Assembly: GCA_017936385.1 (NCBI GenBank)
Contig: JAGBFQ010000013.1
Coordinates: forward strand, 1 to 64,000
Direction: 5' to 3'
Length of the DNA: 64,000 nucleotides
Origin: Rikenellaceae bacterium
GTDB lineage: Bacteria; Bacteroidota; Bacteroidia; Bacteroidales; Rikenellaceae
The position numbers and the translations under genes are program-made. The notes beneath the pieces are model-generated. The model was not told where the DNA came from. It did not search any database and worked only from the letters and a program-made list of their open reading frames with translations. Every line of letters begins with the position of its first letter. Within the stretch, counting starts at the first letter, position 1. This document shows, piece by piece, positions 4,395 through 32,945 of this stretch.

Positions 4395-4417
4395 GGTCAC
4401 AAATATAACTTTTTTAA

Positions 4418-4499: not shown

Positions 4500-4508
4500 T
4501 GAAATTCG

Positions 4509-4516: not shown

Positions 4517-4538
4517 CGGTCCCAAACTGATTCGGACT

Positions 4539-6341: not shown

Positions 6342-6426
6342 CACGGACGATTCTTCGTTTGTATTTCTACAAAATTACAACTATTTGGCTAAATTACAAA
6401 TATTTCGACACGGATTCGGAGCGTAA

Positions 6427-7123: not shown

Positions 7124-7137
7124 ACTATATTAGATTG

Positions 7138-7596
7138 ATGAAACCTATCGAACAGAAAATAGACACTGCCGAGGTAAAAAACGCCTCAACTCAAACCACA
7201 AACAACACCGCAAAACAGTCCACAACTCGCGGCCTTAAACGTTGGATATTCATCACTTTGGGATGTCTCTGCGTCGGGCTTGGTGCTTTGGGTGTTTTTG
7301 TCCCGGGGCTGCCATGCACACCGCTGTTGCTGTTGTCCTCGTGGCTGTTCTACAAGTCGTCACTCAGTATGCAGCAATGGTTATTGGATTCGCATCTGGG
7401 TGTCTACATACGCGAATACGAACGCCGAGGTGGAATGACTCTCCGTCAACGCCTTTGGGCGCTGGGACTTATGGCAACCATGGTAACGCTGTCATGCGTA
7501 TGTTTCATCTCGTCGGCCACCGTGCGCATTATAGTTGCTATTGCGGGTGCGATTGGTTGCGTGGTTGTTGGATTCATTGTCCCGAGCGCGAAATAA
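7138..7596 (+). CDS. DUF454 (YbaN-like) inner-membrane protein
   Basis: A 152-aa protein with a polar N-terminal extension of about 35 residues. The YbaN/DUF454 core follows: GLGALGVFVPGLPCTPLLLL, the SSWLFYKSS motif and HLGVYIREYERRGGM, then two further membrane helices. The GALGxxLPGLPTTPFxLL-type motif is the family hallmark. Function is unknown. A TTG codon precedes the ATG at 7138, which I take as the start. The gene ends just before a strong bidirectional terminator. Confidence 0.85.
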   Translation: MKPIEQKIDTAEVKNASTQTTNNTAKQSTTRGLKRWIFITLGCLCVGLGALGVFVPGLPCTPLLLLSSWLFYKSSLSMQQWLLDSHLGVYIREYERRGGMTLRQRLWALGLMATMVTLSCVCFISSATVRIIVAIAGAIGCVVVGFIVPSAK

Positions 7597-7612
7597 CCTA
7601 CCCTTATAACAA

Positions 7613-7651
7613 AAGAATGGCTGTTCAACGTGTGGTTGAACAGCCATTCTT
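7613..7651. terminator. Bidirectional terminator between DUF454 and the M60 array
   Basis: A perfect 16-bp stem (7613-7628 with 7636-7651, AAGAATGGCTGTTCAA) with a 7-nt loop, flanked by A-rich sequence on the left and TCTTATT on the right. It can stop both the rightward DUF454 transcript and the leftward M60-like array. Confidence 0.85.
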
Positions 7652-7667
7652 CTTATTGCATAATCCT

Positions 7668-10628
7668 CTATTTGGCCTGGTGCCATACACCATTGGCATC
7701 CACGCCATAGAATTTGGCACCATTCAGAGCGGGAGTATTAGACTCGGCCTTAGTTTTAAGGTTCTTGCCCACGGTCTTGTAGAACTCCGACGAGTTTTCA
7801 GACGATGTAGCACCGGCATCATTACCCCACATAAACTCGTTCCACTCGGTGAAGACAAATGCTTTTTGACCTGCATCACCTACACCATAGAGTTTACCAT
7901 CGGTACCTTCAACCAAATAAGCCACGCAGTTCTCCCAATTTTGGAAGTGGTACTTGGTGGTATTCTTTTGGTGAGCAACCTTACCAATCTTCACCTCGGC
8001 AGGCTCCTTGAACAAGTTAATATTGTTCTCGGTAATGAAATGGATGGGTTGGGTAGGCTTGGGATATTGCGCCATGTGCGCGCGAGCCTTGTCGATACGC
8101 TCCTTCGAGATGAAAATCTGACGGCGACCGTAATCGTTGAACCACACACCTTCAACGGGAGTCAAGAATCCCCAACGCTCAAAAAACTCGGTCATATCGA
8201 GTTTAACAACGTCACTCACCAGCTCACAGAAACGCAACATAGCCTCCTCGTCACTCATAGTGGCGCAGTCGGGATAGTTACGAACGGTGTGGTAGATAGT
8301 CGGATAGAAGTCGGTCATGCCCTTCACCTCGGTGAAGTAGAGGTACAACTGCCAGAAGGGAACAACCTTCAAGTAGTAAGCCTCGTCCCACGAACCAACC
8401 AGGATGTGAGAGCAACCACGCGACATAAGGTCGGCAAATGCACCCTCATAACCTACGTTCTTGGTGTTGGTACGCAACATTGTCTCGCCGTTGAGCTTAA
8501 ACTGAACGTATGCCGAGCAGATGTTGTTGGTTACCTCCGAGGTACCAATCCATTTCAGACCGTTACGCACTTGGTTGACGTGGCCCATCTCGTGAGCGAT
8601 ACCCCAGCAACCACGACGAGTGTGATAGTAGTCAAGAACGGTGAGTTGGCAATCCCAGCTCGACACATCATAACCCGTCTCATACGAACCTGCATACATG
8701 TACGAGCCGCCATAACGACCTACCATACGCATACGGTTGGCGTGAGCACCGGTATTGTAGAGGTGGTGACCCTGAAGTTGCTCCTCCAACCATACGATGC
8801 TATCCAGAACCTGTATCAACTCCATGGCGCGCTCGCCGTCACGGGTGTGTTGTTGAATCAGGTCCGAGCCAAAGGTCATCACAACCTCGGGGCTGCGCAT
8901 GTCGAAGTGGGGATACATTGAGAGTTCCTCGTTCTTCAGGGCGATTGATTTGTTCAGCAACTCTTCGAAACGCTCGGGTCCGTGCATCTCGGAATCCCAA
9001 TAGCCGTTCACCTCGCCATCCACAAAGTTTACCTTAATCTCGACTTTCGAATTTGAGAAGTACTCCAGGTAACACAGACCACCATAAAAACGTTCGTTCG
9101 AAGGAACGTTCGAAGGAATGGTAATTTGGTTGATACCCGTACGCAGGCTGTAGCTTTGGGAGCTGCAACCCCAGTGAGAATCATGGCGATTCGAGTAATC
9201 CTTATAACGCCACTTGTAGTTAGAAACCACCAAACGAGGGTTGACATCTTCACGACCGTCATCACTCACGCACACGGTATAGGTGCGACCCGGGTACATC
9301 AGAATACCGGTCACGTTGTCCAACTTGGTATAGGTCGAAGTGTGATACTTCTCGGCATCAATGTCGGGGTGTTGGTATGTGTGATAGGTAGCCACACGGA
9401 ACTCGTTATCCTCGGCCTTGCGGTTAAGCATAATTTTGGCAATCGAACGCAGCGTAGAGTCTTTGATTTTTGTCAGGTCAGCCTCCGAGAAATTCGGGTT
9501 CTTGAACACCGAACACGACTCATCCTCAAACAGTTCGATGGGTTTGTAGTAAACGTCGTCCGAATAGAAGAACTCTATCTCCGAAGCGCCAGCCAACAGA
9601 CCCTTGGATACCGAACGACCTTTGGCCGTCTTAACCTCAATCACCATCTCGGTAACGCCGATAAGCGACTCTTTGAAACGAGCTGTCTGTTTGCCATCCT
9701 TCATACCGAAGTCGAAATCGCCGAGTTCGATATAATCTTTCGAATCCTCGAGTTTATACTTAACCGAGAACTCACCCCATTGTCCATACTCGGGGCTGGG
9801 ATAGTAGTCCATGTAGTCGATACGGTAACGACCGTCGAAAGTGAAGGTCAGCACCGCATTCTCGTCGATACCTGAATTGGGGCACGACCAATAGGTTTCC
9901 AGATTGTTGTCCGCAACCATTTCAATGCCATAGCCGGGACGCGAGTCTTCGGTGTAAGTAACCTCGGTATAGGGCACAAAGCATGCTTGATTTTCGCGCA
10001 CACGCTCGGGTTTCTTGCCCGCAGCCTGCTCGACAACAATTTTGGCATTCAGTGCATAGTCGGTTTTGATTTCGATGGTCGCCTCGCGCTCTTCGGTTAC
10101 AGTGTTCTGGGCAACCTCCACGGTCAGTTGACCTTCGTTGTCGGTCACGGTAATCCACTCTGCCGAGTTAACAACATCGTACTCGACGTTGGTTGTAACC
10201 GACACTGTTTTTTGTCCGCCCTCAGCCTCAAACGACAACTCTTTGGGCTCGACAACCAGCGCGGGAGCAAAACCCAACTGAGTGACGGTCAACTCTGCCA
10301 TGGCCGTTTTACCCGACACATAAACCATGGTTTCGCGTGCCTGCTCGGCGGTGTTATCCTCCACCGAAACACGGATTGCAAATTGCTCCCCCACGAGGGT
10401 TTTCTCAACGGTCAGCCAATCGCCATCCAGAATTTGAACCTCCCAGCTATCGCAATTTTCGAGAGTTACAATCACATCCTGGGCCTCAGCTCCAACGGCT
10501 GCAAACGAGAGTGCTTCCGTAGACAAGGTTATTGCCTCGGGGGCATCCTTAGGCTCGTCTTCGGGCGGCGGCGTACAAGCGGCGAAGGCCGTCATAACCG
10601 CCAATAGGGTTAAAAGATACTTTTTCAT
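7668..10628 (-). CDS. M60-like metallopeptidase lipoprotein 1 (BACON x2, F5/8C, M60)
   Basis: A 986-aa predicted surface lipoprotein. The signal peptide ends at FAAC (C18), followed by a Pro/acid-rich linker. Two BACON-type Ig-like domains occupy about 33-205 (WLTVEKT, EWITVTDNEG). An F5/8 type C (CBM32-like) domain with DNNLETYWSCPN lies at about 213-350. The M60-like N-domain and catalytic domain follow from about 365. The zinc motif is H679-E680-M-G-H683, with E698 as probable third ligand (HExxH-x14-E). M60-like (PF13402) enzymes from gut Bacteroides such as BT4244 cleave mucin-type glycoproteins, and the substrate here is inferred only. It is the last gene of the seven-gene array, 45 nt after its neighbour and just before the terminator. 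Its chain is the most diverged of the short subfamily. Confidence 0.93.
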   Translation of the reverse strand: MKKYLLTLLAVMTAFAACTPPPEDEPKDAPEAITLSTEALSFAAVGAEAQDVIVTLENCDSWEVQILDGDWLTVEKTLVGEQFAIRVSVEDNTAEQARETMVYVSGKTAMAELTVTQLGFAPALVVEPKELSFEAEGGQKTVSVTTNVEYDVVNSAEWITVTDNEGQLTVEVAQNTVTEEREATIEIKTDYALNAKIVVEQAAGKKPERVRENQACFVPYTEVTYTEDSRPGYGIEMVADNNLETYWSCPNSGIDENAVLTFTFDGRYRIDYMDYYPSPEYGQWGEFSVKYKLEDSKDYIELGDFDFGMKDGKQTARFKESLIGVTEMVIEVKTAKGRSVSKGLLAGASEIEFFYSDDVYYKPIELFEDESCSVFKNPNFSEADLTKIKDSTLRSIAKIMLNRKAEDNEFRVATYHTYQHPDIDAEKYHTSTYTKLDNVTGILMYPGRTYTVCVSDDGREDVNPRLVVSNYKWRYKDYSNRHDSHWGCSSQSYSLRTGINQITIPSNVPSNERFYGGLCYLEYFSNSKVEIKVNFVDGEVNGYWDSEMHGPERFEELLNKSIALKNEELSMYPHFDMRSPEVVMTFGSDLIQQHTRDGERAMELIQVLDSIVWLEEQLQGHHLYNTGAHANRMRMVGRYGGSYMYAGSYETGYDVSSWDCQLTVLDYYHTRRGCWGIAHEMGHVNQVRNGLKWIGTSEVTNNICSAYVQFKLNGETMLRTNTKNVGYEGAFADLMSRGCSHILVGSWDEAYYLKVVPFWQLYLYFTEVKGMTDFYPTIYHTVRNYPDCATMSDEEAMLRFCELVSDVVKLDMTEFFERWGFLTPVEGVWFNDYGRRQIFISKERIDKARAHMAQYPKPTQPIHFITENNINLFKEPAEVKIGKVAHQKNTTKYHFQNWENCVAYLVEGTDGKLYGVGDAGQKAFVFTEWNEFMWGNDAGATSSENSSEFYKTVGKNLKTKAESNTPALNGAKFYGVDANGVWHQAK

Positions 10629-10673
10629 ACGTTTTTATTTAATCATTAAAAATATTGTATTCTACATCAATGT

Positions 10674-13625
10674 CTATTGCGCCTCGTAGAGTTTGCCATT
10701 TGCATCCACGCCATAGCATTTGGCACCCTTCAACGCGGGAAGGTTTGCCTCCGTAAACTCTTTCAGTGCTGTATTAACCGTGCGATAGTACGTTTTGGAG
10801 TTGATATGACCACCTTCAGGATTGACTTTACCATTGCTGTCACCCCATTGGTACTCGTTCCACGAGGTACTTACAAAAGCTGACGCTGTGTCCGAGATAC
10901 CGTACATTCTGCCATCGTTACCCACAACTATGAAAGCTACGCAGTTCTCCCAGTTCCTGAAGTGATATAGAACCTGACCGGCCGCATGGCTTACCGTACC
11001 AACCGTCACCTCAGCAGGCTCCTTAAACAGATGCATATTGCGCTCCGAGATGAAGTGAATCGGCTGCGTGGGTTTGGGATATTGAGCCATGTGCTTGCGG
11101 GCTTTGTCGATACGCTCCTGGCTGATGATGATATGTTGCGAGCCGTAGTCGTCAAACCAAACGTCTACGGGTGTCAGGAAACCCCAAAGTTCAAAGAACT
11201 CGGTCATATCAGTTTTGGTAACATCACTCACCAACTCACAGAAACGCAGCATAGCCTCTTCGTTGCTTACGGTCGCAGCGTCGGGATAGTTACGCGAAGT
11301 GTGGTAAATCGTAGGATAGAAATCGGTCATACCTTTCACCTCGGTAAAGTAGAGATACAGCTGCCAGAAGGGAACAACCTTCATATAATAAGCCGCATCC
11401 CACGAGCCTACCAACACATGTGAGCATCCGCGAGCCATGATATTCTTAAACGCAGCGTTGAAACCATGTGTCGAGTTTTGTTTACCCAGAACAGTGTAGT
11501 CATTCAACTTCCACTGAACGTACGCCGAGCAGATGTTGTTGGTTACCTCGGTTGTGCCGACCCATTTCAGAATGGGACGAACTTGGTTAACGTGACCAAA
11601 CTCGTGGGCAGGGCCCCAACAGCCTTCTCTCAGGCCATCGGGATTAACACAATCCGGGGCACGCAGAATGTTGTAACCCGTGTGGTACGAGGTTGCATAC
11701 ATGAACGAACCGCCATAGCGACCCACCATGTGCATACGGTTGGCATGACCGCCTGTATTAAATAGTTTGTGACCTTGAAGTTCCTCCTCCAGCTCAATGA
11801 TTTGGGCATAAAGGTCGATAACCTCTTTGGCGCGTTCACCGGTTTGGGTCTTCTGCTTGTAGAGGTACGATGGGAACGACATCACGATGCGCGAGTTACG
11901 CACATCCAAGTGTGCCGGAAAACCATATTCCTCTTCGATAGCGAACGAGTTGTTAAGGAACTCCTCGAAACGGTCGGGCGAGTGTACTTCGGTATCGTAG
12001 TAGCCATTCACCTCACCGTCAATGAAGTTAACCTTAACCGACAAATCGTCGCTCGACATCAGTTGAATGTAACACAAACCTCCGTAGTTATCAAACGACG
12101 TATCGTTCGGAAGGGTAATTGTGTTGATACCGGGACGCAGCACGTAATCGCGGATAGCCCAATCGTTTTCGGTTTCGTGCACCTTGCCGCTTACGATTTT
12201 GGGACTCTTGTAGTGAATGACGGTCAATTTGACTGTTATATCATCACGACCGTCGTCACTTACGCAGATAATGTTGGTACTACCTGGCAGCAACAACATA
12301 CCTGTAACGTTATCATATTTCGAGTAAGGAGCATTCAGATAGCGATTTGCATCAATCATCGGATTGGGATACGACTTGTAGGTAGCCACGCGGAATTCGT
12401 TATCCTCGGGGGTACGAATCAGCATAATTTCGGCAATATCGCGCTGCATATCATCCTTAACCTTACTCAAATCTTTGGACGAGAATTTCGGGTCTCTGAA
12501 CACCGAGCACGACTCGTCCTCAAACAGTTCAATTGCAGTGTAATAAACATCATTCGAATAGAAGAACTCAACCTCGGCAGCTCCGGCCAACAGACCTTGT
12601 GTTACCGAGCGACCTTTGGCCGTCTTGACCTCAATCACAAGTTCGACAACATTCATCAGCGACTCCTCGAAACGGATGGTTTGTTTGCCATCTTTCATTC
12701 CAAAGTCAAAATCGCCAACCTCAACATACTCCTTGGCATCGTCGGCTTTGTACCTAACCGAGAACTTACCCCATTGTCCATACTCGGGGCTGGGATAGTA
12801 ATCCATGTAGTCAATACGATAGCCACGGTCGAACTTAAAGGTCAGTACCGCATTCTCGTTGATACCCGCATTGGGGCACGACCAATAGGTCTCCAGATTG
12901 TTATCAAACATATTTTCGACACCATAGCCCGAACGCGAGTCATCCTCATAAATAACCTCCGAATATGGCACAAAGAATGCTTGGTTGTCGCGTACACGGT
13001 CGGGAATCACCACTTCTGCAGCCTCTTGAAGGACTTTGATTGTGGTGCCGACGGTGTAGTCGGTTCCAATTTTCACGACAGCCTCACGCTCCGTAGGTTC
13101 GGTATTCTCTGCTGCGACAATGGTAAGCCCCTCCTCACTTTCAGTTACGGTGAGCCATTCAGCCTCAAAGGTTATTTTCCACTCGACGTTAGCCGTAACA
13201 GCCACAGTACTTTGGCCACCTGCCGCCACAAACTTCACCTCCTTCGGGTCGACCGACAGCGTTGGGGCAAGACCCAACTGAGTAACGGTCAACTCGGCAA
13301 TAGCCGTGTTACCCGAAACATAAATTGTGGTTTCGCGCGACTCCTCGGCAGTATTATCCTCCACAGAGACGCGAATGGCGAGTTGTCCATCCACAATGGT
13401 TTTTTCAATGGTCAGCCAATCGCTGTCCAAGCTTGAGACATTCCACTCCACACAGTTTTCAAGCGTTACCACAACATCTTTAGGCTCGGCGTCAACCGCG
13501 TCGAACGAAATCGACTCCTCGGCCAAGATTACCTCCTCGGCTTTATCCTGCGGCTCTTCAGCAGGCGTGGTACAAGCGGCAAAAGCCACAACCACCGCCC
13601 AAAGTGTCATAAAATACTTTTTCAT
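10674..13625 (-). CDS. M60-like metallopeptidase lipoprotein 2 (BACON x2, F5/8C, M60)
   Basis: A 983-aa lipoprotein (lipobox cysteine C18, MKKYFMTLWAV...) with the same layout as its two short neighbours: two BACON domains at about 33-205, an F5/8 type C domain at about 213-350 (DNNLETYWSCPN), then the M60-like N- and catalytic domains. The active-site motif is H674-E675-F-G-H678 with E693 downstream in GTTEVTNN, so it is predicted active. Long blocks around the metal site (VNQVRPILKWVGTTEV) are identical with lipoprotein 3, indicating recent duplication, whereas the 430-560 region differs, with insertions. It is in an array of seven co-directional genes. Substrate specificity is unknown. Confidence 0.93.
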   Translation of the reverse strand: MKKYFMTLWAVVVAFAACTTPAEEPQDKAEEVILAEESISFDAVDAEPKDVVVTLENCVEWNVSSLDSDWLTIEKTIVDGQLAIRVSVEDNTAEESRETTIYVSGNTAIAELTVTQLGLAPTLSVDPKEVKFVAAGGQSTVAVTANVEWKITFEAEWLTVTESEEGLTIVAAENTEPTEREAVVKIGTDYTVGTTIKVLQEAAEVVIPDRVRDNQAFFVPYSEVIYEDDSRSGYGVENMFDNNLETYWSCPNAGINENAVLTFKFDRGYRIDYMDYYPSPEYGQWGKFSVRYKADDAKEYVEVGDFDFGMKDGKQTIRFEESLMNVVELVIEVKTAKGRSVTQGLLAGAAEVEFFYSNDVYYTAIELFEDESCSVFRDPKFSSKDLSKVKDDMQRDIAEIMLIRTPEDNEFRVATYKSYPNPMIDANRYLNAPYSKYDNVTGMLLLPGSTNIICVSDDGRDDITVKLTVIHYKSPKIVSGKVHETENDWAIRDYVLRPGINTITLPNDTSFDNYGGLCYIQLMSSDDLSVKVNFIDGEVNGYYDTEVHSPDRFEEFLNNSFAIEEEYGFPAHLDVRNSRIVMSFPSYLYKQKTQTGERAKEVIDLYAQIIELEEELQGHKLFNTGGHANRMHMVGRYGGSFMYATSYHTGYNILRAPDCVNPDGLREGCWGPAHEFGHVNQVRPILKWVGTTEVTNNICSAYVQWKLNDYTVLGKQNSTHGFNAAFKNIMARGCSHVLVGSWDAAYYMKVVPFWQLYLYFTEVKGMTDFYPTIYHTSRNYPDAATVSNEEAMLRFCELVSDVTKTDMTEFFELWGFLTPVDVWFDDYGSQHIIISQERIDKARKHMAQYPKPTQPIHFISERNMHLFKEPAEVTVGTVSHAAGQVLYHFRNWENCVAFIVVGNDGRMYGISDTASAFVSTSWNEYQWGDSNGKVNPEGGHINSKTYYRTVNTALKEFTEANLPALKGAKCYGVDANGKLYEAQ

Positions 13626-13658
13626 TTATTGGTCTTCTATTCTTTTGTATTTCACACG

Positions 13659-13690
13659 CGTTGGTTGTCAGCCTCAACCGACAACCAACG
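13659..13690 (-). other. Intercistronic stem-loop (lipoproteins 3/2)
   Basis: A perfect 11-bp stem (13659-13669 with 13680-13690, CGTTGGTTGTC) with a 10-nt loop in the 86-bp spacer. On the transcribed strand it is not followed by a T-run, so it is more likely an RNA-stability or partial-attenuation element than a full terminator. Confidence 0.6.
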
Positions 13691-13711
13691 TCATGCGAAT
13701 CTTAGAGTCAA

Positions 13712-16663: not shown

Positions 16664-16699
16664 AAATGTATTAGGTTAAAATTAATTTATTTTCCCTAC

Positions 16700-16748
16700 A
16701 AGTGCATTGAGGGTGGAAAAGTTTTCGGGCTCACCCACCCTCGCACTT
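16700..16748 (-). other. Intercistronic stem-loop (lipoproteins 4/3)
   Basis: AAGTGC (16700-16705) plus GAGGGTGG (16709-16716) pair with CCACCCTC (16735-16742) plus GCACTT (16743-16748), a 14-bp stem with a 3-nt bulge. The downstream transcript is A/T-rich (AAAATAAATT), so partial termination is possible. Confidence 0.65.
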
Positions 16749-16754
16749 CAATCA

Positions 16755-19700
16755 TTATTTGTTACTTTGGCTTGCGTAACGTTTGCCATAAGCATCCACA
16801 GCGTAGAGTTGCAGACCTTTGGCGTACTCATAGTCAGCACCTTCCACGGCTTGGAGGGCACGCGAGGTTCCCACCTTCTTGTCGGTACCATCCGAGTAGA
16901 AGTAGTCTGTGAAGTCGCCTTCTGCTTTGGGCATATAGCGCGACTCACGAAGACCATATTGGAAACCGCCGTTCAAAGCGTCATCCCACTTCTTGATTGC
17001 TACCACACGGCCTTGCTCGCCGGTGCGGAGGTCTTTCTTGGCAGGGTCAACCAGCACCCAGGCCACTACATTTTGCCAGCCGCTAACCGTAAAGTTACCC
17101 TGGTCATCCACCGAGTGAGTTCCTGCGATGACTGCTTGCGGGTTGCGATACAGGTCAAGGTTCAGGTCGTGGATGTACAGCGGGTTCAACTTGGGTTTCG
17201 GGTACTTCTGACAAGCGGCAACCGATGCGGCAACCTGCTCTTTCGATGTGGTGATAAAGTTTTGACCATAGTGGTTAACTTTCACGCCCTTATTGACACC
17301 TTTGGGGCTGTTAATTCCGGGCAGACCCCACGCTTGAGCAAAGTCGCTAAGGTCCTCGCCGGCAGCCTCCGAAATCGACTTCATATACTCCAGAGTCATC
17401 GCCGAGTTGAACTCATCGGTGGTAGCATAGTTCTCCGAACGCACGTCTTTGGTACGGCACAACTCATAGAAGTCGGGGTAGAAATCGGTCTTACCCAGCA
17501 CCACGTGGTAGTAGAGATACAACTGCCAGAAGGGCATCAACTGCGAAGTGGGGTCGGTACCTTCCGAGAAGTTGCGGTAACACGGGGTGTTCACCGACTC
17601 GCAGTGGGTGAGCGGACGCTCGAAATAGTTACCCTCATCGTCGAAGTCCCAAATCACACGAGTTGCGATGTCAATCATGCTACGGTTGAAGTGGTCGTTG
17701 AAACGCATTGTAGTGTTACCCTCGCCATAGAAAATCCATTGGGTGATGGCACACATCAGGTTGTTGGTAACCTCCGTCAGACCTCTCCACTTAAACATCT
17801 CGGTTTGGTTGGTGTGGCCCAGCTCGTGCGCCAGACCCCAAATCGAGCCCACAACATCATTATTGTAATGGGTTACATTCTTTTTCCATTGTTCGGTGGG
17901 GTCGACGATGGTTTTACCCATACTACCCACATTGTAGTAGGTACGATACGCCGACGAAGCACCATAGTACGAGGTGTAGGTTCCGTGGAACAGCGCGCGG
18001 TTGCGGTGAACACGTTGTTTGCCCAAGGCCTTGTATTTGTAATGACCTTGAATATCCTCTTGGATGTACATCACAGTATCGAACAGGTGCAACAGCTCCT
18101 CAACGCGGTGGGTGTTGGCACTGTTCTTTTTGAACGTACCCTCATAGAACATCGCTTTGGGGAAGTTTATCAGAGCCTTGTGCGACATCATATCGAAGTG
18201 AGGTTCGGTGTTGCCACCCTTGCGCAGTAACTCATAAGCACGGCTCATATCGGTCTTACCCAACTCAATGTAACCATTCACCTCGCCGGTCAGGAAGTGG
18301 GCCGTCATCTCGGGAATGTTTGCATAGTCGTCGGTGTGGCACATGATGTACATCAAACCGCGAGTCAACGGAACAATCTCGTTGTAGCCCTGACGGAGCG
18401 AGTGGGTATGATTCACATATTGGTAGTTGCCATTAACCTTTACGTAAGCTCTGTTGGCGGTGCTGGCCGAGAAACTCTCGTAATTAACCCAGTCAATCAC
18501 ACGCACCGAAACATTCTGTCCGTGAGTGTCGTCCAAGAAGATACGGATGGTATCACCCGGCTCGGCAACGTACATACCCGTCACATTGTCAAGCAGTGTG
18601 TAGGTATTGGTGCGGAAAAGCTTGGCATCAACATCGGGGTGCGGGAACGCCTTGAACTTACAGATACGGAACTCACCGTCATACACACCATAGTAGAGTT
18701 GCTCGGCAACAGTGCGATACAAGTCAACGGGCATTGCCTCGATTTGTTCCAGAGTTACCTCGGGACGAAGCTCGCTAAGCGACCAGTCAGTAAACACTGA
18801 CAGAGGCTCGAACGTGGTATCCTTCTTGTAGAATTTAACATCCATCAAACCTGCATACAGACGCTCGGCGGCGGCAGTACCTGGAGTATTGCTATTGTAC
18901 GAAGAGAGAACGTTGAAACGAATCGACTTCACGCCTTTGAGCGGTTGCTCGAAAGTAATGGTTACAGGATTAATCGTTTGATTAAAATCATACGACATCA
19001 ATTTGGTTTCAGTTCCTGCGTCATCGGTAACATAGATATCAACCTCATCCCATACGCCATTCGATTTGGATGTATAAGGCAGATAAGGATATACCACCAT
19101 ATAGTCGATTTGGTCGTACTTCGCGGGGTTGAATTCAATCGAAATCCACGGCTCCTTATCGGTAGAATAGCTCGACTCCCAATAGGTATTGAGGTCGCCA
19201 TCAATCGCCTTCAAAGCGCCATATTGAGTGTATCTATTGGACGAAGCCTTAGCATTAGAAGGTTTAATCTCGGTGTCGCTGGGGAACTCCATTTGGGTCA
19301 CATCGCCAAACTCTTTCATGGCATCTTGCGACACTTTAATCTCCACGTTCTCGTCACCACACGAAATGGTCAGGGTTGCATTACGTGCCTCGGCTACCTC
19401 GTTGTCTGCGACGCTTACAATCAGGGTGTCGGTAATCACACCCTTCTTGACCTCCCAATTAATCCATTCGGCCGTAGTCGAAGGCAACCAATCTCCATTT
19501 GCCATCAGAGTCACACACGTCGGCTCGTTTTTCATAAACGAGTAGTGTTGCTCCTCGGCATTGTCGACAAACAATTTCTGGCTGCCCCATTGCATAACAC
19601 GCACCGAGGTCGAAGTTTTTTCGCTCGCAAAGGTAATCACACCATAGCGGGGCTGTTTGTCATACGACTGCGAAACGTAGATATTCTCGCATATCTCGTT

Positions 19701-20222: not shown

Positions 20223-20277
20223 TCCCAATGCTTTTTATCGCACACCTCAAGGATATGCGGATTTATACTTTAGAGTA

Positions 20278-20318
20278 CAACGATGCCGCAGGCTGCTCTT
20301 CAGCCTACGGCACCGTTG
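20278..20318 (-). other. Intercistronic stem-loop (lipoproteins 5/4)
   Basis: CAACG-TGCCG-AGGCTG pairs with CAGCCT-CGGCA-CGTTG across 20278-20318, with a 5-nt loop and two single mismatches, giving about 16 pairs. It lies in the 105-bp spacer upstream of lipoprotein 4. The T-run on the transcribed strand is weak. Confidence 0.65.
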
Positions 20319-20327
20319 GGTTAGGTA

Positions 20328-23300
20328 TTACTTATTGCTTTGGCTTGCGTAACGCTTACCGTAAGCGTCAACAGCGTAAAGTTGCAGAGTCTTGGTGTAT
20401 GCGTGGTCGGCCGAAACTCTCTCCAGCGAACGCATGGTACCCTTGTCATTCGAAGCGTACGACGAACCGTTGTTGTACTTGTAGTCGGTACCGGCGTCGT
20501 TAATCATATAACGTGACTCATAGTGATTGTAGGTGAAGCTACCGCCGCCGTTTTGGTTGTTGCACTCGATAACGGCAACATCACGGCCCTTCTCGCCATT
20601 CTCATTAACCTTGTTGGGGTCGTGCAGCACCCAAGCCACAACATTTGCCCAACCGGTCATAGTGAATTTACCTCGGTCATCCACGGTGTGAGTACCTGCG
20701 GTAACAGGTTGCGGGTTGCGATACAAATCCAAGTTATCGTCGTGGATGTACAGCGGGTTCATCTTGGGTTTGGGGAATTTTTGACAAGCAGCAACCGAAG
20801 CCTCAACTTGCTCTTTGGTAGTCATAAAGAATGCTTGACCGTAGTGGTTAACTTTGGTACCGGGGTTGATACCCATTGCGGGGTTCACACCAGGGATACC
20901 CCACTCACAAGCGAAGTCGCTCAAGTCCTCACCGGCAGCCTCCGAAATCGATTTCATATACTCCAGAGCAATAGCCGATTGGAACTCATCGTGGTTCGGA
21001 TACGCCGCACGAAGAGCCGGATATTTAACACGGCACAACTCATAGAAGTCGGGATAGAAGTCATTGTTACCCAATACTACGTGGTAGTACAAGAACAGTT
21101 GGTAGAAAGGCATCAGCTGAGTGGTGGGGTCAACACCGCCATCGATATTACCTGCGCTGGGGTTATTAACCGACTCGTGGTGAGTCATCGGACGCTCATA
21201 AGGTTTACCATCCTTGTCGAAGTCCCAAACCCAACGTTTTGCCATATCGCGCATACCTTTGTTGAAGTGGTCGTTGTAGTTCATGGTGGTACGGCCCAGA
21301 CCCAAACCATAAACGTAGTTTTGGGTGATGGCACACATCAGGTTGTTCGAAACCTCGGCCATACCTTGCCATGTGAACAGGTCGGTTTGCGACGAGTGAC
21401 CCAACTCATGGGCGATACCCCAAATGGCACCTACCACGCCGTTATTCCATACGGTAGTCTTCTTGTTCCACAGTTTGGTGGGGTTCACAACGTCAGCCGA
21501 CATTGCAGCCGAGTAGCCGGTGTGGTACCACGACGAGTAGCCGAACGCGTCACTATACGAACCCATAAACAACATACGGTTGCGGTGGGTACGTTGCAGA
21601 CCTTGGGCTGCGTATTTGTAGTGACCTTGGATACGCTCTTGAATCTTGGTTACCGAGTCGTAAACCTCCATCAGGTCGAATGCGCGTTGTGCATTGTCGC
21701 GGGGGTTACCGTTGAAAGTAGCCTTCAAGTATTGAGCTTTTTCGAAGTTCAGGATGAAGTCATCTCCAATCATATCGAAACGAGGCTCTTTGGTCGAAGG
21801 TGCGAGCATAAAGATACGATGAACATCCTCTACGGTGTGTTTGTTGTAGTCCAGATAACCGTTCACGCCCGAGTTCACGAAGTGAGCCTTCATGGGAGGA
21901 ATCTTGTCATAGTTCTCGTCATCGAATGCCAGGATGTACATTTGGCCACGGTAAGCGGGAACAATCACGTTACGACCTTTTTGGATTTTATAGTCGTATC
22001 TGTGCGAGTCGGGACCGGTACCCATCGGGTTAGCGGTAGTTTCGTAGTTTGCTTGGTCGCACACACGAACATAAATCTCCAAGCCGTAGTCCTCATCCAG
22101 GTAGATGTATTGAGGAGTGTTGGCTTTCTCGACATACATACCGGTTACGTTGTCAAGCACGGAGAAAGGTTTGTCGCGGAAAATCTCGTAGTCACGCTCG
22201 GGACGGGGATAAGCCTTGAACTCGCATACGCGGAACTCGTCATCGTAAGTGCCGTAGAAAATTTGCTCGGCCAGAGTACGATAGAACGGGTCTTTGATTG
22301 CCATCACGTCGCTCAGGGTGATACTCTCTTTGAGTTCCGACAACGACCAATCAGTAAAGTAGTCCAGAGCTTGGAACATCTCGGGGTTGTATTGGTAGAA
22401 ACCAGCCTCCGAAGCCGATGCTACGTTCTTATACTCAGTACCTTTCGAGTCAACATACGAAGTCGAGCTGTTAATCACGATACGGAATTTGCTCACTGTG
22501 TTGGGCAGTGCAGGGTCGAACTCAACGGTTTGGTCGGTACCCTTCTCTTCGAAGTCATAGCTGCCGTATTTGGTCTCGGTGCCGTCAACGGTGTAATACA
22601 AATCAATCTTACCCCAGCGACCCCACAGGTTGTTACCATCATTAGTTGTCACGGGAACATACTTAAAGTAGTTGATGCAATCCAACTCCGAAGCATCAAT
22701 CTCGAATACCAACTCGGGAGCGTTCTCGTTTTGTTTGATGTTCGAGTACCATTTCGAGATGGTGTTGCCATCATACAGACGTGTAATACCGCTACCAGCC
22801 GAGTTTTGGCCGTTGCTCGAGGTCACGTTGGTATATTTAACGTACAAATCTTCTTTGAACTCATCACCTTCGGGCATCTCTGCATTCGAAACTTGCACCT
22901 GTGTGATGGTCATCGATTTGGTCGAGGTCGAAGTCTTAACGGTTACAACCGCCTCACGCGATTTATCCTCAGCGTTCTCCGAATAGTCGAAGTAAACCCA
23001 ACCATCGGCCGAAGCCTCCGACAGACTCTTGTTATAGGTCAGCCAGCCATCAGCAGCCTCAACGCTTACGGTATATTCGCTCGGCGAGGTTACCTGGATA
23101 CTGTCACGACCGGCAACATAGCCAATCAACAGTTCCGATTTGCTCAGACGAAGGTCATCTTTACCCCATTGTTTGATGCTTACATCAACACTGGCGTTCA
23201 AACTCTTGAGTGTAACAACAACGCTACGCTCGTCATTTCCGAAGTTCTCCGAAATATACAGAGCCTCCTCATACAGACCCTCACCCTTCTCGGTGCGGCC

Positions 23301-23816
23301 GTCCGAGCTTACCCAGTTGCAATCCTCGGGTACAACGACCTCATAGCCACCGTTTGCTTCAACAGCGAGTTTGAGAGTGGTGCTGGGACGCTCCAACACA
23401 TACTCCGTGGTCTCGAGTTTGATTTCGGTTGCGGGGGTTACCTCGTTGTAGCTTTGTTTAACAACAAATTGGTCGGCCAAATCGCCATTAGTTACGGTTA
23501 CAACCAATTCGCGGTCGGCGCCGGTATTGTTTGCAGTAACTGTTACACTGATATATCCACCACCTTGCGAAGGTACAGGAGTCAGCGAGCACCAATCGTT
23601 CTCTGCGGCACTGCAATCCCACATAATGCTGTGGGTATTAACCAAAAAGGTCACATCTTCATTAGCTTCATAACCCAGGTACAGGGTATCGGCCTCCACC
23701 TCCAAATATGGAGTTTCATCACCTCCCTGGGTTTTCTCCTCGGGAGTACACGACACTGACATACCGATGAATGCGGCAACGGTCAGCATCAAGCCAAAAA
23801 ATTTGTTAAGTTTCAT
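20328..23816 (-). CDS. M60-like metallopeptidase lipoprotein 5 (BACON-like x3, F5/8C, M60)
   Basis: A 1,162-aa lipoprotein (lipobox SVSC, C23). Three BACON-like repeats lie in about 38-315 (DWCSLTPVPSQGG, the 'NWVSSDG' repeat, GWLTYNKSL). An F5/8 type C-like domain spans about 322-480 (LYDGNTISKWYS), followed by the M60-like region from about 482. The metal site is H803-E804-L-G-H807 with E821 (AEVSNN). Compared with its neighbours the sugar-binding-domain loop around the DGNxxxxW motif is altered (KWYS rather than YWxS), so the lectin specificity may differ. An antisense ORF of more than 1,000 codons is treated as a shadow. Confidence 0.93.
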   Translation of the reverse strand: MKLNKFFGLMLTVAAFIGMSVSCTPEEKTQGGDETPYLEVEADTLYLGYEANEDVTFLVNTHSIMWDCSAAENDWCSLTPVPSQGGGYISVTVTANNTGADRELVVTVTNGDLADQFVVKQSYNEVTPATEIKLETTEYVLERPSTTLKLAVEANGGYEVVVPEDCNWVSSDGRTEKGEGLYEEALYISENFGNDERSVVVTLKSLNASVDVSIKQWGKDDLRLSKSELLIGYVAGRDSIQVTSPSEYTVSVEAADGWLTYNKSLSEASADGWVYFDYSENAEDKSREAVVTVKTSTSTKSMTITQVQVSNAEMPEGDEFKEDLYVKYTNVTSSNGQNSAGSGITRLYDGNTISKWYSNIKQNENAPELVFEIDASELDCINYFKYVPVTTNDGNNLWGRWGKIDLYYTVDGTETKYGSYDFEEKGTDQTVEFDPALPNTVSKFRIVINSSTSYVDSKGTEYKNVASASEAGFYQYNPEMFQALDYFTDWSLSELKESITLSDVMAIKDPFYRTLAEQIFYGTYDDEFRVCEFKAYPRPERDYEIFRDKPFSVLDNVTGMYVEKANTPQYIYLDEDYGLEIYVRVCDQANYETTANPMGTGPDSHRYDYKIQKGRNVIVPAYRGQMYILAFDDENYDKIPPMKAHFVNSGVNGYLDYNKHTVEDVHRIFMLAPSTKEPRFDMIGDDFILNFEKAQYLKATFNGNPRDNAQRAFDLMEVYDSVTKIQERIQGHYKYAAQGLQRTHRNRMLFMGSYSDAFGYSSWYHTGYSAAMSADVVNPTKLWNKKTTVWNNGVVGAIWGIAHELGHSSQTDLFTWQGMAEVSNNLMCAITQNYVYGLGLGRTTMNYNDHFNKGMRDMAKRWVWDFDKDGKPYERPMTHHESVNNPSAGNIDGGVDPTTQLMPFYQLFLYYHVVLGNNDFYPDFYELCRVKYPALRAAYPNHDEFQSAIALEYMKSISEAAGEDLSDFACEWGIPGVNPAMGINPGTKVNHYGQAFFMTTKEQVEASVAACQKFPKPKMNPLYIHDDNLDLYRNPQPVTAGTHTVDDRGKFTMTGWANVVAWVLHDPNKVNENGEKGRDVAVIECNNQNGGGSFTYNHYESRYMINDAGTDYKYNNGSSYASNDKGTMRSLERVSADHAYTKTLQLYAVDAYGKRYASQSNK

Positions 23817-23860
23817 GTCGTTTTGTTAATATTTAATTAGTTATTTGGTTTTCATCTTTG

Positions 23861-23908
23861 GCACCACCGCGCCCACAAGAGTTGAATCTCTCTTGTGGGC
23901 GTGGGTGC
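23861..23908 (-). other. Intercistronic stem-loop (lipoproteins 6/5)
   Basis: GCACC-CGCGCCCACAAGAG pairs with CTCTTGTGGGCG-GGTGC (23861-23908), more than 15 pairs with a small 2-nt internal loop. It lies within the 98-bp spacer and is the strongest of the intercistronic stems. On the transcribed strand the following bases are AAAGATGAAAACC, not a T-run. Confidence 0.7.
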
Positions 23909-23914
23909 ATTACT

Positions 23915-26900
23915 CTATTTCGAAGGGTTCGACAGACTCGGCACTCGGCTGCCATCGGGGTGGATAGCATACAGCAACAGGTCGTCGCGGAAAATCGGGC
24001 CTACGTTCTCGGTCGAACGTCCGTAGCCATCTTTACAATATTGGTAGCGAGTACCCTCGGGGTTGGTTGCGCCATCGGGCAACAGGATGTACTTGCAGGT
24101 GTACTCCTTGTAGCTGAACGATGTGAAACGACCCTCGAAGCAGGCTACGTCGCGCTTCTTAACGGGGTCATACAGAACCCAAGCGGCAACGTTTTGCCAA
24201 CCATCAACAGTCACACGCACGGCACCATTTTTATTTTCAACGGTGTGCTTACCTTGAACGATGGTTTTGGGGTTACGATACAGTTCCAGGTTCGAGTCGC
24301 AGATGTAGAACGGATTGAGGCGCGGTTTGGGGAACTTACGGCACTCGGCAACAGCCTTATCAATCATTTCTTGCGAAGTGTTGATAATATTTTGACCATA
24401 AACCGACACACGCATATTCTCATTCACGCCGGGGATACCCCAGTGCAATGCCCAATCACTCAGGTCCTCGCCTGCAGCCATCGAAATCTTAATCATATAG
24501 TCGGTCATAGCCCACGATTGGTCGTTGTTCGACTTGTCGAACAGCTCGCGGTTACCGCTCCAACCTCTGAAGTCCCAGCCGTGGTCGAACAGAATATCGC
24601 CACGCAGACGACATTGCTCAAAGAAGTCGGGATAGAAGTCCGTGTTACCCATTGCATAGTGGTAGTACAAGAACAACTGCCAGAAGGGAACCAGCGTTGC
24701 TGCGGGGTCGATACCGCCCGAGCTACCTGCGGCGGGGGTATTGGCTGCCTCAGCCAGAGTCATACGACGCTCAACCTCATTGCTATTTGCATCGAAGTCG
24801 GTGATGTAGCGGTGACCTATATCGCGCCATGCCTCGTTATATTTCATCTTGAAGTGCAGAGTGGTTTTACCCTCGCCAAACAGAGCAGCTTGAGTACCCA
24901 CGCACATCAGGTTGTTGGTAACCTCCGTCAGACCACGCCATGCAAACGGACGGCATTGGTTCGAGTGGCCAATCTCGTGAGCCACACCCCAAATGGTACC
25001 GATAGTGTTGTTGGCAGCAACGTCGGGACCCAGGTCACGTGCATCGGCATCGGTAGTTCCCGAACCGCCGAGCAGAGTGGTATTCGGGTTCCACATCTTG
25101 ATGGGGTCGGTTACATCTTGGAGAATCGAGTTGATACCATAGCCGGTACGATACCAGCCCGAACCTGCAACGGCATTACCATACAGGGTGAAGAAGGGTG
25201 CACGGTTGCGGTGACCACGCGATTTGGTCGGGTCGTCTTTAACCACATCAGCGTACACTTTACTATACTTGTCGTGACCTTGCCAGCGCTCTTGTTGGCG
25301 AACAACGCTATCGAAGATAGCCACCAGGCGGGCACCGTCTGCCGAGTTGTCGCCATTACGACGCAGTGTACGGTTATAGATGGTCTCCTTGGGGAAGTTC
25401 ATGATAACCTTATCCGAGAGCATATCGAAGTGCGGCTCGGTGTTGCCACCCATGCGCAACAGACGATAGAAGTCCTCGGGCTTGTCGCGGTCCAGATAGA
25501 AGTAGCCATTCACATGACCCGTGGCAAAGTTAATCTTGATAGGCGGGAATTTGGCGTAATCGGGGGTGTGCCAAATAATGTACATCAGACCACGATATTG
25601 GGGAATAATCATGTTTTTGCCCTTATAGATGCGATAGTCCGACTCGCAACGACCGACAACACGTTCGGCCAGACCCTCGTCGCCAACCATATCGCACACA
25701 CGCAGATACATCTCCTGACCGTAATCCTCCTCTACAAAAAGATAGATGGGGTCTCCAACTTCGGCCACGTACATACCCGTTACGTTATCGAGCAGGGTGT
25801 GAGGAGGTGTGAAGAATATCTTGGCATCAACATCGGGGTGAGGATACGCCTTAACTTCGCACACGCGGTATTTATTCCAATCTCCGTTGTAGATTTGCTC
25901 GGCCATAGAGCGGTAGAACGGGTCGCGGATAGCCAAAATATCCTCATAAGTCACTTCGGGCAACAGTTCCGAGCACGAAGCGTCGGTGAAGTACTCCCTA
26001 ACAGGGAAGTTATCGGGGTTATATTGGCAGAACTCAATACCGGCAGCCGAAGCAACGTTGGTAGTGGTTTCATTGAACGGCTTGGCAGTCAGAATCTTGA
26101 ATGTAGCCTTTCTGATGTTGACGGGCAGTGGCTCATCAAACTCAACGGTACGAGGCGTGTCGGCCATCTCGAAGTCATAGGTAGCAAAGAGTTTCTCTTC
26201 GGCCTCATCCTTGTACTGAACGTAGACCTCTACCTTACCCCAGTTACCCCACGATATACCGCGAGCGGGGCAATAACGGAAGTAGTCGATTTGGGTCATC
26301 TCCTGCTCTTCGGCAAACTCAAAACTGATGAACACCGTGCCCTCTTGATTCTTGGCAGTGGTGCTCCAATACGACAGGTCGTTGCCATCATAAGCAGCCT
26401 TCATGGCACCACGGCTGTTCGAAAATTGCGACGAAGCCTCGGCTTTGGCAACTTTCAAAATCAGGTCTGCCTGTTGTTTATCGCTCACAAGTGCATCATA
26501 CTCTTTGGGGGCGACTTGGTCGATTTCGAGGGTTACTTTGGTCGAGCCTGCCGACACAACGAGGTCTGCACTACGAGGCTCCTCACCCGAGTTTTCGTCA
26601 TAGACCAGCACCAAAGTATCTATCGTAGAGGCGGTCACATCCTGACGAACCCAGTCAGACTCGGTTTGAACCACACACTTCTGGTCGAGCCACATCTCTA
26701 CGGGGATTCTCAGACTACCCGCTTTGTGCGACAAGGTGTAGGCCGTTTTTTCAATCGAGAACTCCTGCGAACCAACTTGTACGAAGGTCACTGTGGCCTC
26801 GGCGAATTCGCTGCGGAACACAACTTCGGTCGAGCGGGGTTGCTCACCAAAGTATTGGTCATAAAGGAATTTGCCATCCTCCCAATTAAGCCAGCTGGCA

Positions 26901-27403
26901 TCCTCCGGAATCTCAACTTCATAAACTCCGTTGGCGATAACCTCGAATGCACTCTCGCCAAACTCCTTGCTTACAATCTTCATACTGTCGCACTCGATGC
27001 TTGTGGCATCCTCCTCGTCGGCAGCAACTTGAGCAATCTGAATTCCTACGCTATAAGTATCATAATATATAGTAAGGTAGGTTTCGCGGCCCTCGGTTGC
27101 GGTATTGGCCTCGGCTGTAATCGACAGCGCTTTCTTGGCATTCTCGTCAATTGTGGTAGCCACGTGCAACCACTCAAGCGACTCCTCTTCTTGTTGAATC
27201 TGCCACTCGTTGTCGGTTGCAAACACAGGGATTATCTCGGCTTCTTCCGCCGAAATACCCTCAGCAGGAATATACAGCTCCGTCACGTCGGGCAGTATAA
27301 ACTTTTTTGAATCTTGTTCTACGGGGTCGTTGTTGCACGATACTGCAAGTACCGACAACATAACCACTGCGACAATTCGCATGTTTCGTAATAATTTGTT
27401 CAT
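23915..27403 (-). CDS. M60-like metallopeptidase lipoprotein 6 (BACON-like x3, F5/8C, M60)
   Basis: A 1,162-aa lipoprotein (AVSC, C23). BACON-like repeats occupy about 35-305 (EWLHVATTID, SWLNWEDGK, DWVRQDVTA), F5/8 type C about 311-464 (YDGNDLSYWSTT), and the M60-like region runs from about 471. The catalytic motif is H809-E810-I-G-H813 with E827. Insertions relative to lipoproteins 4 and 5 occur just before the metal site (a GGSGTTDADARDLG-type loop) and near the C-terminus. The tail (LYAIHPDGSRVPSLSNPSK) is a diverged version of the family ending. It resembles lipoprotein 7 most in the BACON and F5/8 domains. Confidence 0.93.
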   Translation of the reverse strand: MNKLLRNMRIVAVVMLSVLAVSCNNDPVEQDSKKFILPDVTELYIPAEGISAEEAEIIPVFATDNEWQIQQEEESLEWLHVATTIDENAKKALSITAEANTATEGRETYLTIYYDTYSVGIQIAQVAADEEDATSIECDSMKIVSKEFGESAFEVIANGVYEVEIPEDASWLNWEDGKFLYDQYFGEQPRSTEVVFRSEFAEATVTFVQVGSQEFSIEKTAYTLSHKAGSLRIPVEMWLDQKCVVQTESDWVRQDVTASTIDTLVLVYDENSGEEPRSADLVVSAGSTKVTLEIDQVAPKEYDALVSDKQQADLILKVAKAEASSQFSNSRGAMKAAYDGNDLSYWSTTAKNQEGTVFISFEFAEEQEMTQIDYFRYCPARGISWGNWGKVEVYVQYKDEAEEKLFATYDFEMADTPRTVEFDEPLPVNIRKATFKILTAKPFNETTTNVASAAGIEFCQYNPDNFPVREYFTDASCSELLPEVTYEDILAIRDPFYRSMAEQIYNGDWNKYRVCEVKAYPHPDVDAKIFFTPPHTLLDNVTGMYVAEVGDPIYLFVEEDYGQEMYLRVCDMVGDEGLAERVVGRCESDYRIYKGKNMIIPQYRGLMYIIWHTPDYAKFPPIKINFATGHVNGYFYLDRDKPEDFYRLLRMGGNTEPHFDMLSDKVIMNFPKETIYNRTLRRNGDNSADGARLVAIFDSVVRQQERWQGHDKYSKVYADVVKDDPTKSRGHRNRAPFFTLYGNAVAGSGWYRTGYGINSILQDVTDPIKMWNPNTTLLGGSGTTDADARDLGPDVAANNTIGTIWGVAHEIGHSNQCRPFAWRGLTEVTNNLMCVGTQAALFGEGKTTLHFKMKYNEAWRDIGHRYITDFDANSNEVERRMTLAEAANTPAAGSSGGIDPAATLVPFWQLFLYYHYAMGNTDFYPDFFEQCRLRGDILFDHGWDFRGWSGNRELFDKSNNDQSWAMTDYMIKISMAAGEDLSDWALHWGIPGVNENMRVSVYGQNIINTSQEMIDKAVAECRKFPKPRLNPFYICDSNLELYRNPKTIVQGKHTVENKNGAVRVTVDGWQNVAAWVLYDPVKKRDVACFEGRFTSFSYKEYTCKYILLPDGATNPEGTRYQYCKDGYGRSTENVGPIFRDDLLLYAIHPDGSRVPSLSNPSK

Positions 27404-27445
27404 AGTTTTAAGGTCTTTATATTATTATCTTTCTTTTCATATTGT

Positions 27446-27477
27446 TGCTTTGCAGGCACATTCAAGTCTGCAAAGCA
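27446..27477 (-). other. Intercistronic stem-loop (lipoproteins 7/6)
   Basis: A perfect 10-bp stem TGCTTTGCAG (27446-27455) with CTGCAAAGCA (27468-27477) and a 12-nt loop, in the 87-bp spacer upstream of lipoprotein 6. On the transcribed strand it is followed by the moderately T-poor ACAATATGAAAAGAAAG. Confidence 0.6.
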
Positions 27478-27490
27478 TTATAATTCAACG

Positions 27491-30400: not shown

Positions 30401-30907
30401 CTCCTCGGGAACAACAATCTCATAGCTGCCATTAGCCTTGATTGCGGGAGTAAACTCACCCATGGTACGCGGCACACTGACCAGCGAGTCACACTCGATG
30501 CTGGTTGCAGCCTCCGCCTCGGCAGCAAGTTGCACAACCACAAGGTCGGCTTGATAGGTATCATAGTAGAGTGTGAGGATTGACACGCGCTCCTCGCCCG
30601 AATTCGCCGTCACACCAACGAGCAACGACTTACGGTTATACTCATCCACGCCTGTGGCCACTTCGCACCACGGTTTAGACTCATCATCCTGCAACAGTTT
30701 CCACTCATTGTCCGTTGCAAAGACGCCGACCATTTCGGGCTCTACCGAAGCCGCACTTTTAAAGTACAACGTATCGCGGTCGATTTGGATATACTTCGAC
30801 TTGTCCGAACCTTGTTCGTCAGGGCCATTTTCGCAAGACCACAATGCAACCGTCATAGTCAGCAGCACAAAGGCCACCGACCACGCCGATTTCAAAATTA
30901 TTTTCAT
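27491..30907 (-). CDS. M60-like metallopeptidase lipoprotein 7 (BACON-like x3, F5/8C, M60)
   Basis: The promoter-proximal member of the array, 1,138 aa from the ATG at 30905-30907. An ATG four codons upstream is possible, but the chosen start puts K2 at the head of the signal peptide, which ends LWSC (C25). BACON-like repeats cover about 35-300 (PWCEVATGVD, NWLSYEEGM, DWLSYKAAE), F5/8 type C about 312-455 (YDRNEMSWWGTD), and the M60-like region starts near 469. The zinc motif is H786-E787-L-G-H790 with E804. It starts 89 bp after the gyrB stop codon. I see no convincing -7 box in that gap, so read-through from ftsE-gyrB or an unrecognised promoter must drive it. Confidence 0.93.
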   Translation of the reverse strand: MKIILKSAWSVAFVLLTMTVALWSCENGPDEQGSDKSKYIQIDRDTLYFKSAASVEPEMVGVFATDNEWKLLQDDESKPWCEVATGVDEYNRKSLLVGVTANSGEERVSILTLYYDTYQADLVVVQLAAEAEAATSIECDSLVSVPRTMGEFTPAIKANGSYEIVVPEECNWLSYEEGMLYYSTYYEDKPRTVTVTIRSEYASAEMTIMQVGKLDAQIEREVYTVPYKEGCVNIPVEIWTQGAEVSVTEQADWLSYKAAESSDDNLHFDFTANESKEERLAAVKIKVADTEIVATVRQNPVSEYAEVKNDQQKADLMLAVEKASASSVFSTSRNANKAYDRNEMSWWGTDVMSEQEECWLSYEFAAEQELSQVDYMRYVPSESISWGNWGEIEVYLTRNGVEELLGKYDFRKVSTPSIVSFDEPLSIVGLEKVTVKILSSTPFSETVKCAASAGEFGFYQYNPDNFPTLDYFTDLSCWELRPEITWEDIQAISDPFYRNMAEQIFNGDYNRFRRHLAQAYRHPDKDAEIFQNSPKTLLDGVTGMYVAKAGDPQYIFLDEDYGQDIFLRVIDWVNDEGMAGRVLEHERAVNYRLKKGRNVITPSLRGLMYIFWHTEDYATLPRIRINFANAGVNGYFNAETDAPEDFYPTMMQAGLSPEPHFDIITDNVIMNFTKSTLREFSFQKNPALYKRAMRTIMIFDTVTRIQQIIQGFDKYAALGRERVYHNRAPFYAAYGDCFGGAGAYATVYGNRNMAHDILDPDHMWPENFDPAKLDNGKVGHCWGLAHELGHNNQTNHFGWRGLGEVSNNLMGAITQTTFFGEGNTTMRFNNHFNRCMADMVTRWVVDPDGTERHLTYCESVNTPQYGVSRTTSDPNHQPMVDPTTQLMPFWQLYLYYHRVLEKTDFYPDFYELCRLDRPIKFRDWFLSGGMESSADQEYAMYEFMVKASTAAGEDLSGFCNDWHLPGINNRMLCSHYGQSVITTTQEEIDKRVAVCNKFPKPEMNPLYINDLNIDLYRQRAMLTAGSYTVSEDGVYKMNGDWSGVAAWALVDPETERVMGIYQGADAQIKYRYYTSIYEAYDPEKHGYRGQGCPEDSPYLTHNNGYQRFMLIGPGVIRTDLKLYGVDVWGQYHEGKRVE

Positions 30908-30995: not shown

Positions 30996-32945
<1,950 letters not shown>

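Follow-up and report, generated by a model that had tools for sequence, protein, structure and literature searches.

A conserved row of seven diverged M60-like metallopeptidase lipoprotein genes behind gyrB in a small-genome Rikenellaceae lineage

Directly behind gyrB, on the minus strand of a 64,000-nucleotide stretch of Rikenellaceae DNA (the window; contig JAGBFQ010000013.1 of assembly GCA_017936385.1), lies a block of seven co-directional open reading frames (ORFs; positions 7668-30919) of 983-1162 codons each, separated by spacers of 45-105 nucleotides (nt). All seven match the Peptidase_M60 profile PF13402 (61-122 bits, E 1.5e-16 to 6e-35; curated cut-off 25.8 bits), which bears out an initial annotation, made from the letters alone, of seven consecutive M60-like genes next to gyrB. 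The host genome (1.84 Mb, 36 contigs, 90.5% complete) is compared here with two sister species of the same genus, the metagenome-assembled genomes (MAGs) RGIG4262 from roe deer colon (G010) and SIG167 (G004). The genes concerned are:

7668..10628, minus strand: gene 1 (last transcribed), M60-like lipoprotein of the short subfamily, 986 amino acids (aa), zinc ligands H679/H683/E698; PF13402 116 bits, two BACON domains, F5/8 type C sub-threshold; catalytic part of the orthologs 94% identical in G010 and 72% in G004
10674..13625, minus strand: gene 2, M60-like lipoprotein of the short subfamily, 983 aa, H674/H678/E693; PF13402 121 bits, BACON, F5/8 type C 29.6 bits
13712..16663, minus strand: gene 3, M60-like lipoprotein of the short subfamily, 983 aa, H675/H679/E694; PF13402 113 bits; catalytic clade with G010_C49_35658 (support 80/59)
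16755..20228, minus strand: gene 4, M60-like lipoprotein of the long subfamily, 1157 aa (1155 from the ATG at 20222), H801/H805/E819 in the 1157-aa numbering; PF13402 94 bits, F5/8 type C 45 bits, PF17291 sub-threshold
20328..23816, minus strand: gene 5, M60-like lipoprotein of the long subfamily, 1162 aa, H803/H807/E821; PF13402 74 bits; catalytic part of the orthologs 96% identical in G010 and 75% in G004
23915..27403, minus strand: gene 6, M60-like lipoprotein of the long subfamily, 1162 aa, H809/H813/E827; PF13402 61 bits
27491..30919, minus strand: gene 7 (first transcribed), M60-like lipoprotein of the long subfamily, 1142 aa (1138 from the ATG at 30907), H790/H794/E808 in the 1142-aa numbering; PF13402 80 bits; catalytic part of the orthologs 96% identical in G010 and 76% in G004
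30996..32945, minus strand: gyrB, directly upstream of the array and its anchor in three genomes (Pfam, synteny)

Two subfamilies can be distinguished: the proteins of genes 1-3 measure 983-986 aa and have two BACON domains, and those of genes 4-7 measure 1142-1162 aa and have a third immunoglobulin (Ig)-like repeat that is present in the gene 4 model; between the subfamilies the catalytic parts are 27-33% identical. As the initial annotation had proposed, Pfam finds BACON in every protein, and each begins with a lipobox-type Cys followed by nearby acidic residues, although the export signal with which we compared the latter (PMC5080379) may not be that of this lineage. The F5/8 type C domain, also claimed for all seven, scores above the Pfam cut-off in no more than two proteins (genes 2 and 4); genes 1, 3 and 6 give sub-threshold matches, and Pfam misses it in genes 5 and 7. 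The region can nevertheless be aligned through all seven proteins, and the middle domain of the gene 2 and gene 4 models matches the CBM32 of BT3015 (7blg) with template modelling (TM) scores of 0.85-0.86. The suggested check with PF17291 (M60-like_N) gave little: no protein reaches its cut-off of 23 bits, the sole trace being 21.0 bits in gene 4. An NCBIfam search returned weak sub-threshold matches only.

The catalytic machinery is intact throughout, and no gene is an obvious pseudoenzyme, just as first noted. HExGH is present in all seven, and the Glu that is the third zinc ligand follows the second His by 15 residues in genes 1-3 and by 14 in genes 4-7; WG.AHE.GH, this Glu and an Asn are invariant. 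The residues equivalent to the N-acetylgalactosamine (GalNAc) contacts Trp321 and Asn347 of AM0627, both critical for the activity of that enzyme (PMC9325726), are likewise kept in every protein. For genes 2 and 4, the AlphaFold models (mean predicted local distance difference test scores 87.0 and 86.5) have BT4244, ZmpB and AM0627 as their top solved folds, the catalytic modules giving TM scores of 0.73-0.87, by target length, against BT4244 and AM0627. The nearest PDB sequences to gene 2 are BcM60C, BcM60K and BcM60F, to which genes 1 and 3 are also closest. All of these solved proteins, whether closest in fold or in sequence, are O-glycopeptidases acting on mucin. The family, the fold and the probable chemistry of the array are already known.

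The host genome carries ten full-length homologues, nine of them recovered by Pfam: the seven of the array, another on the same contig (C31:111331-114792) and a pair on contig C17. The same array stands behind gyrB in G010, with seven genes, and in G004, with nine, and each of the three array-bearing genomes has ten full-length homologues. Because the array recurs in two independent assemblies, chance and assembly error are excluded. A 2175-aa "double peptidase" of G004 was considered as a fusion and rejected, since it contains a scaffold gap (a run of unknown bases). In each of eight further congeners there is at most one PF13402 match, and no M60 gene follows gyrB in the six array-less congeners whose gyrB surroundings were inspected. 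PF13402 matches occur in 38 of 268 Rikenellaceae genomes, of which none but the three array-bearing ones has more than four. Among 392 Bacteroidales genomes, 26 have matches (the host counted in both figures); in the 391 others no M60 run longer than two was found among the matches listed, where the largest set is at least six, scattered except for one pair.

The array is thus real and rare, and the expectation that equally large ones would not be common in related genomes holds. The accompanying statement that gut Bacteroides carry single or few M60 genes does not, given that B. caccae carries 16, all but one of which lie in polysaccharide utilization loci (PULs) (PMC13355702, PMC3267712), and the homologue count alone is not new. 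What is new is a single conserved, PUL-free row of seven to nine M60 genes, not found described in the open-access literature, in genomes poor in exoglycosidases, together with the separate evolution of stalk and core.

In trees of the catalytic part, each window gene groups with its counterparts of other species: relatives of genes 1, 4, 5, 6 and 7 occur in all three species, while the partners of genes 2 and 3 are G010 genes, with support of 98/94 and a weak 80/59. Since the array genes group by ortholog across species, the expansion predates the split of the three, and a recent origin of the array is rejected. The M60 cores are 86-99% identical between host and G010, with ratios of nonsynonymous to synonymous change (dN/dS) of 0.01-0.16, and the catalytic domains are, by these comparisons, cross-species ortholog groups under purifying selection. 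The catalytic parts of the paralogs in the window share 27-76% identity. Their active-site residues are mostly fixed inside ortholog groups and different between them, as would be expected if each enzyme had its own glycan or peptide preference. The position equivalent to F629 of BcM60K reads Y, F, Y, Y, F, V and F in genes 1 to 7 and is mostly fixed across species, the Val of gene 6, in place of Phe or Tyr, being conserved in all three. In BcM60K this residue borders the G2'' sugar subsite, whether it is Tyr or Phe influences to some degree the preference for core 2 versus sialyl core 1, and in B. caccae selectivity differs even between closely related M60 enzymes (PMC13355702). We regard the variation at this position as the best sequence evidence for diverged selectivity, though not as proof. 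The initial annotation had suggested a local expansion covering different targets; the tandem expansion stands, and the diversified targets gain indirect support from the paralog divergence and the group-specific residues.

One of the dispersed copies, the tenth homologue, differs at the GalNAc-binding Trp before HELGH: each of the three species has Lys or Arg there instead, and this copy is possibly a re-targeted M60 enzyme. Its positions are:

L048:14576-18016 (G000 C17:29576-33016), L044:3504-6941 and L105:4423-7842: tenth homologue, outside the window

The stalks have a different history. In the host-G010 ortholog pairs of genes 1-7 the BACON region is 51-65% identical, with a synonymous divergence (dS) of 1.25-2.85 versus 0.16-1.16 in the M60 core; synonymous change in the stalks is saturated. 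For the genes flanking the array dS is 0.22-1.64. Sliding windows reveal gene-specific steps in identity near residue 260 (gene 4), residue 490 (gene 5), and residues 420 and 840 (gene 1). Approximately unbiased (AU) tests reject, for the N-termini of genes 2 and 3 and three dispersed copies, the orthologous groupings that the catalytic parts form (p 7e-4 or less, values that may be optimistic, the groups being the catalytic-tree ortholog pairs and the N-terminal tree having been seen beforehand); for gene 1 the orthologous grouping is not rejected (p 0.097). The N-termini of the dispersed copies group instead by genome. Because stalk and core differ in history the genes are mosaics, and recombination or within-genome homogenization has, to judge from these alignments, worked on the two parts separately. 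No exact conversion tract of at least 30 nt was found between paralogs in the BACON parts of the host genome; a few lie outside them, mostly in genes 2 and 3. Several genes near the array (window 2500-6344 and 33970-35040) are 71-83% identical between sister species, while housekeeping neighbours are 90-99% identical, hinting at a recombining region.

With respect to glycan use, no SusC/SusD pair lies beside the array among the Pfam-scanned window genes, so that the locus does not qualify as a PUL. SusD (PF07980) is absent from the array contig, its matches being confined to contigs C18, C4 and C36, and each array-bearing genome has three or four. None of the three array-bearing genomes, MAGs that are 83-91% complete, has a match to the sialidase profile PF13088, to GH20 or to GH29; GH20 is present in all four array-less congeners searched. 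Incompleteness is an unlikely cause, since the three MAGs agree. This combination suggests harvesting of the peptide backbone, and proteolysis without trimming of one's own has a precedent in the BT3013-BT3015 PUL, which has a predicted M60 protease and no carbohydrate-active enzymes (PMC11992087). A dipeptidyl peptidase-type Peptidase S46 is encoded near the array (window 43352-45391), in line with peptide use. Neither the lack of matches to the three mucin exoglycosidase families, nor the age of the expansion, nor the parting of stalk and core had been foreseen in the initial annotation.

Stable stem-loops that lack U tracts (z -3.4 to -7.2) occur in five of the six internal spacers, and a further stem-loop closes the array:

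27404..27490, minus strand: stem-loop, gene 7 to 6, -15.5 kcal/mol, z -3.4, without U tract
23817..23914, minus strand: stem-loop, gene 6 to 5, -32.1 kcal/mol, z -6.1
20223..20327, minus strand: stem-loops, gene 5 to 4, -48.7 kcal/mol, z -7.2
16664..16754, minus strand: stem-loop, gene 4 to 3, -29.8 kcal/mol, z -4.7
13626..13711, minus strand: stem-loop, gene 3 to 2, -33.3 kcal/mol, z -6.2
7597..7667, strand unassigned: long stem-loop, U-rich on its flank, in the gap where gene 1 and the plus-strand gene 7135-7596 converge

All four G010 spacers tested fold as well (z -2.4 to -7.3), with sequences that differ from those of the host; the gene 5 to 4 spacer again has two strong stem-loops (-49.8 kcal/mol, z -7.3). 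Other stem-loops of this strength in the window, a small control set, are mostly at the ends of transcription units and not between co-directional genes. The terminal one, which folds on both strands (z -7.0 on the minus strand), is a probable shared terminator at the array end. A Bacteroidota-type promoter motif was not found in any array spacer, and one is present upstream of the dispersed copy at C31:111331. The simplest reading of these features would be one transcript with processing or partial-termination sites. Integron-like attC hairpins were considered for the spacers and rejected, with one partial core-motif match by eye and none in the remaining spacers. The M60 pair on C17 is preceded, at a distance of about 200 bp, by a divergently oriented gene for a tyrosine recombinase of the phage integrase family (L048:9690-10895); an invertible promoter there was also rejected, no convincing inverted repeats being found. 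In G004 a 667-nt spacer between genes 6 and 7 (C17:50531-51197; L039:531-1197) holds an ORF that by eye resembles a uridine kinase, and in the host genome a gene of the uridine-kinase family is likewise found next to the dispersed copy on C31. Plus-strand ORFs of 974, 1078 and 1150 codons opposite the M60 genes (window 13724-16648, 20523-23759 and 23858-27310) are probably a codon-usage effect. Elsewhere in the window, at 58669-62256, a 1195-aa protein joins fimbrillin-like, BspA leucine-rich repeat, BACON and IgA-peptidase M64 domains.

The interpretation that we favour, and hold to be likely though well short of certain, is that the array is a co-directional battery of seven diversified surface O-glycopeptidases that open mucin-like glycoproteins, the products being used as peptides. 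The seven lipoproteins, probably co-transcribed, would be displayed at the cell surface, each as an M60-like zinc O-glycopeptidase whose stalk consists of two or three BACON/Ig-like repeats and a CBM32-like domain. Each would cut the peptide bond before a GalNAc-bearing Ser or Thr of mucin-like glycoproteins, and the paralog pockets would differ in how they read the sugar and the neighbouring peptide, together covering sites beyond the reach of any single enzyme. The cleavage products would probably serve as peptides rather than as sugars, the trimming of glycans being largely left to other microbes. Several points weigh against this interpretation. Catalytic identity to the characterized enzymes is low (20-26% in fold alignments), and genes 5-7 score modestly against PF13402; which residues govern glycan choice is known only in part, and therefore specificity is not readable from sequence. 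The absence of glycosidases rests on incomplete MAGs and three Pfam families, with GH95, GH84, GH89, GH109 and others outside the search, and GH2-type matches exist.

A conserved copy number in a co-directional array, with genes 2 and 3 still 76% identical in the catalytic part, would also suit seven genes with the same job, their number raising the amount of surface mucinase. We consider this unlikely, as most paralogs are just 27-64% identical and the ortholog groups are old, separately conserved and marked by their own active-site residues. Marginally less probable still is that the targets are not host mucin but non-mucin glycoproteins found in herbivore guts, for example surface proteins with O-glycans from other bacteria, from protists or from the diet. 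One sister genome does come from roe deer colon, the related two- and three-gene arrays come from ruminant guts, and the genomes are without matches to the mucin exoglycosidase families; yet the GalNAc-contact Trp and Asn are retained in all seven proteins and the cited characterized relatives act on mucin-type O-glycans. We give very little credence to a display role, in which fast-changing stalks and carbohydrate binding would serve adhesion or evasion and proteolysis would be secondary: the BACON regions are far more divergent than the cores, and some have been replaced or homogenized within a genome, but the most conserved part, under the strongest purifying selection, is the catalytic core and not the stalk.

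The battery of diversified O-glycopeptidases might, more tentatively, characterize a whole lineage, small in genome, rich in mucinases and poor in glycosidases, whose ten M60 proteases would let it live on the peptide backbone after others trim the glycans, with recombination reshuffling the stalks while catalytic specificity is left untouched; the evidence inclines us slightly away from asserting as much. If the exoglycosidase gap is real, this would be a cross-feeding niche, in which others remove the glycans and one species opens the mucin backbone thus exposed. The field has yet to explain why so many M60 proteases are retained by mucin degraders (PMC13355702), and seven paralogs, each with a close-sister ortholog (core up to 99% identical), offer a panel for linking pocket residues to glycan and peptide preference.

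Among known systems, the BcM60 set of B. caccae is likewise a large repertoire of M60 O-glycopeptidase paralogs with accessory domains; it is, however, mostly PUL-associated (15 of 16), and its genome encodes many glycosidases for host glycans, whereas here there is one row and no PUL. BT4244 of B. thetaiotaomicron (PDB 5KD2, 5KD5, 5KD8), the best fold match of both models, is also a lipoprotein with BACON, CBM32 and M60 domains, but it is encoded by a single gene within a complete PUL, together with SusC/D and glycosidases, and has one N-terminal BACON, which did not bind sugars, versus two or three in the array; its CBM32 bound Gal/GalNAc (PMC11992087). AM0627 of Akkermansia muciniphila (7SCI, 7YX8) shares the catalytic fold and the GalNAc-binding Trp and Asn; its solved form is without the BACON/CBM32 stalk, and the array proteins have a residue other than Asp where AM0627 has Asp318 of its G1' site. 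In the arrays of ruminant-gut Alistipes and other Rikenellaceae (L054-L058), the same protein family stands in tandem within the same bacterial family. These comprise only two or three genes and, since they form a separate clade in the tree, have probably expanded independently.

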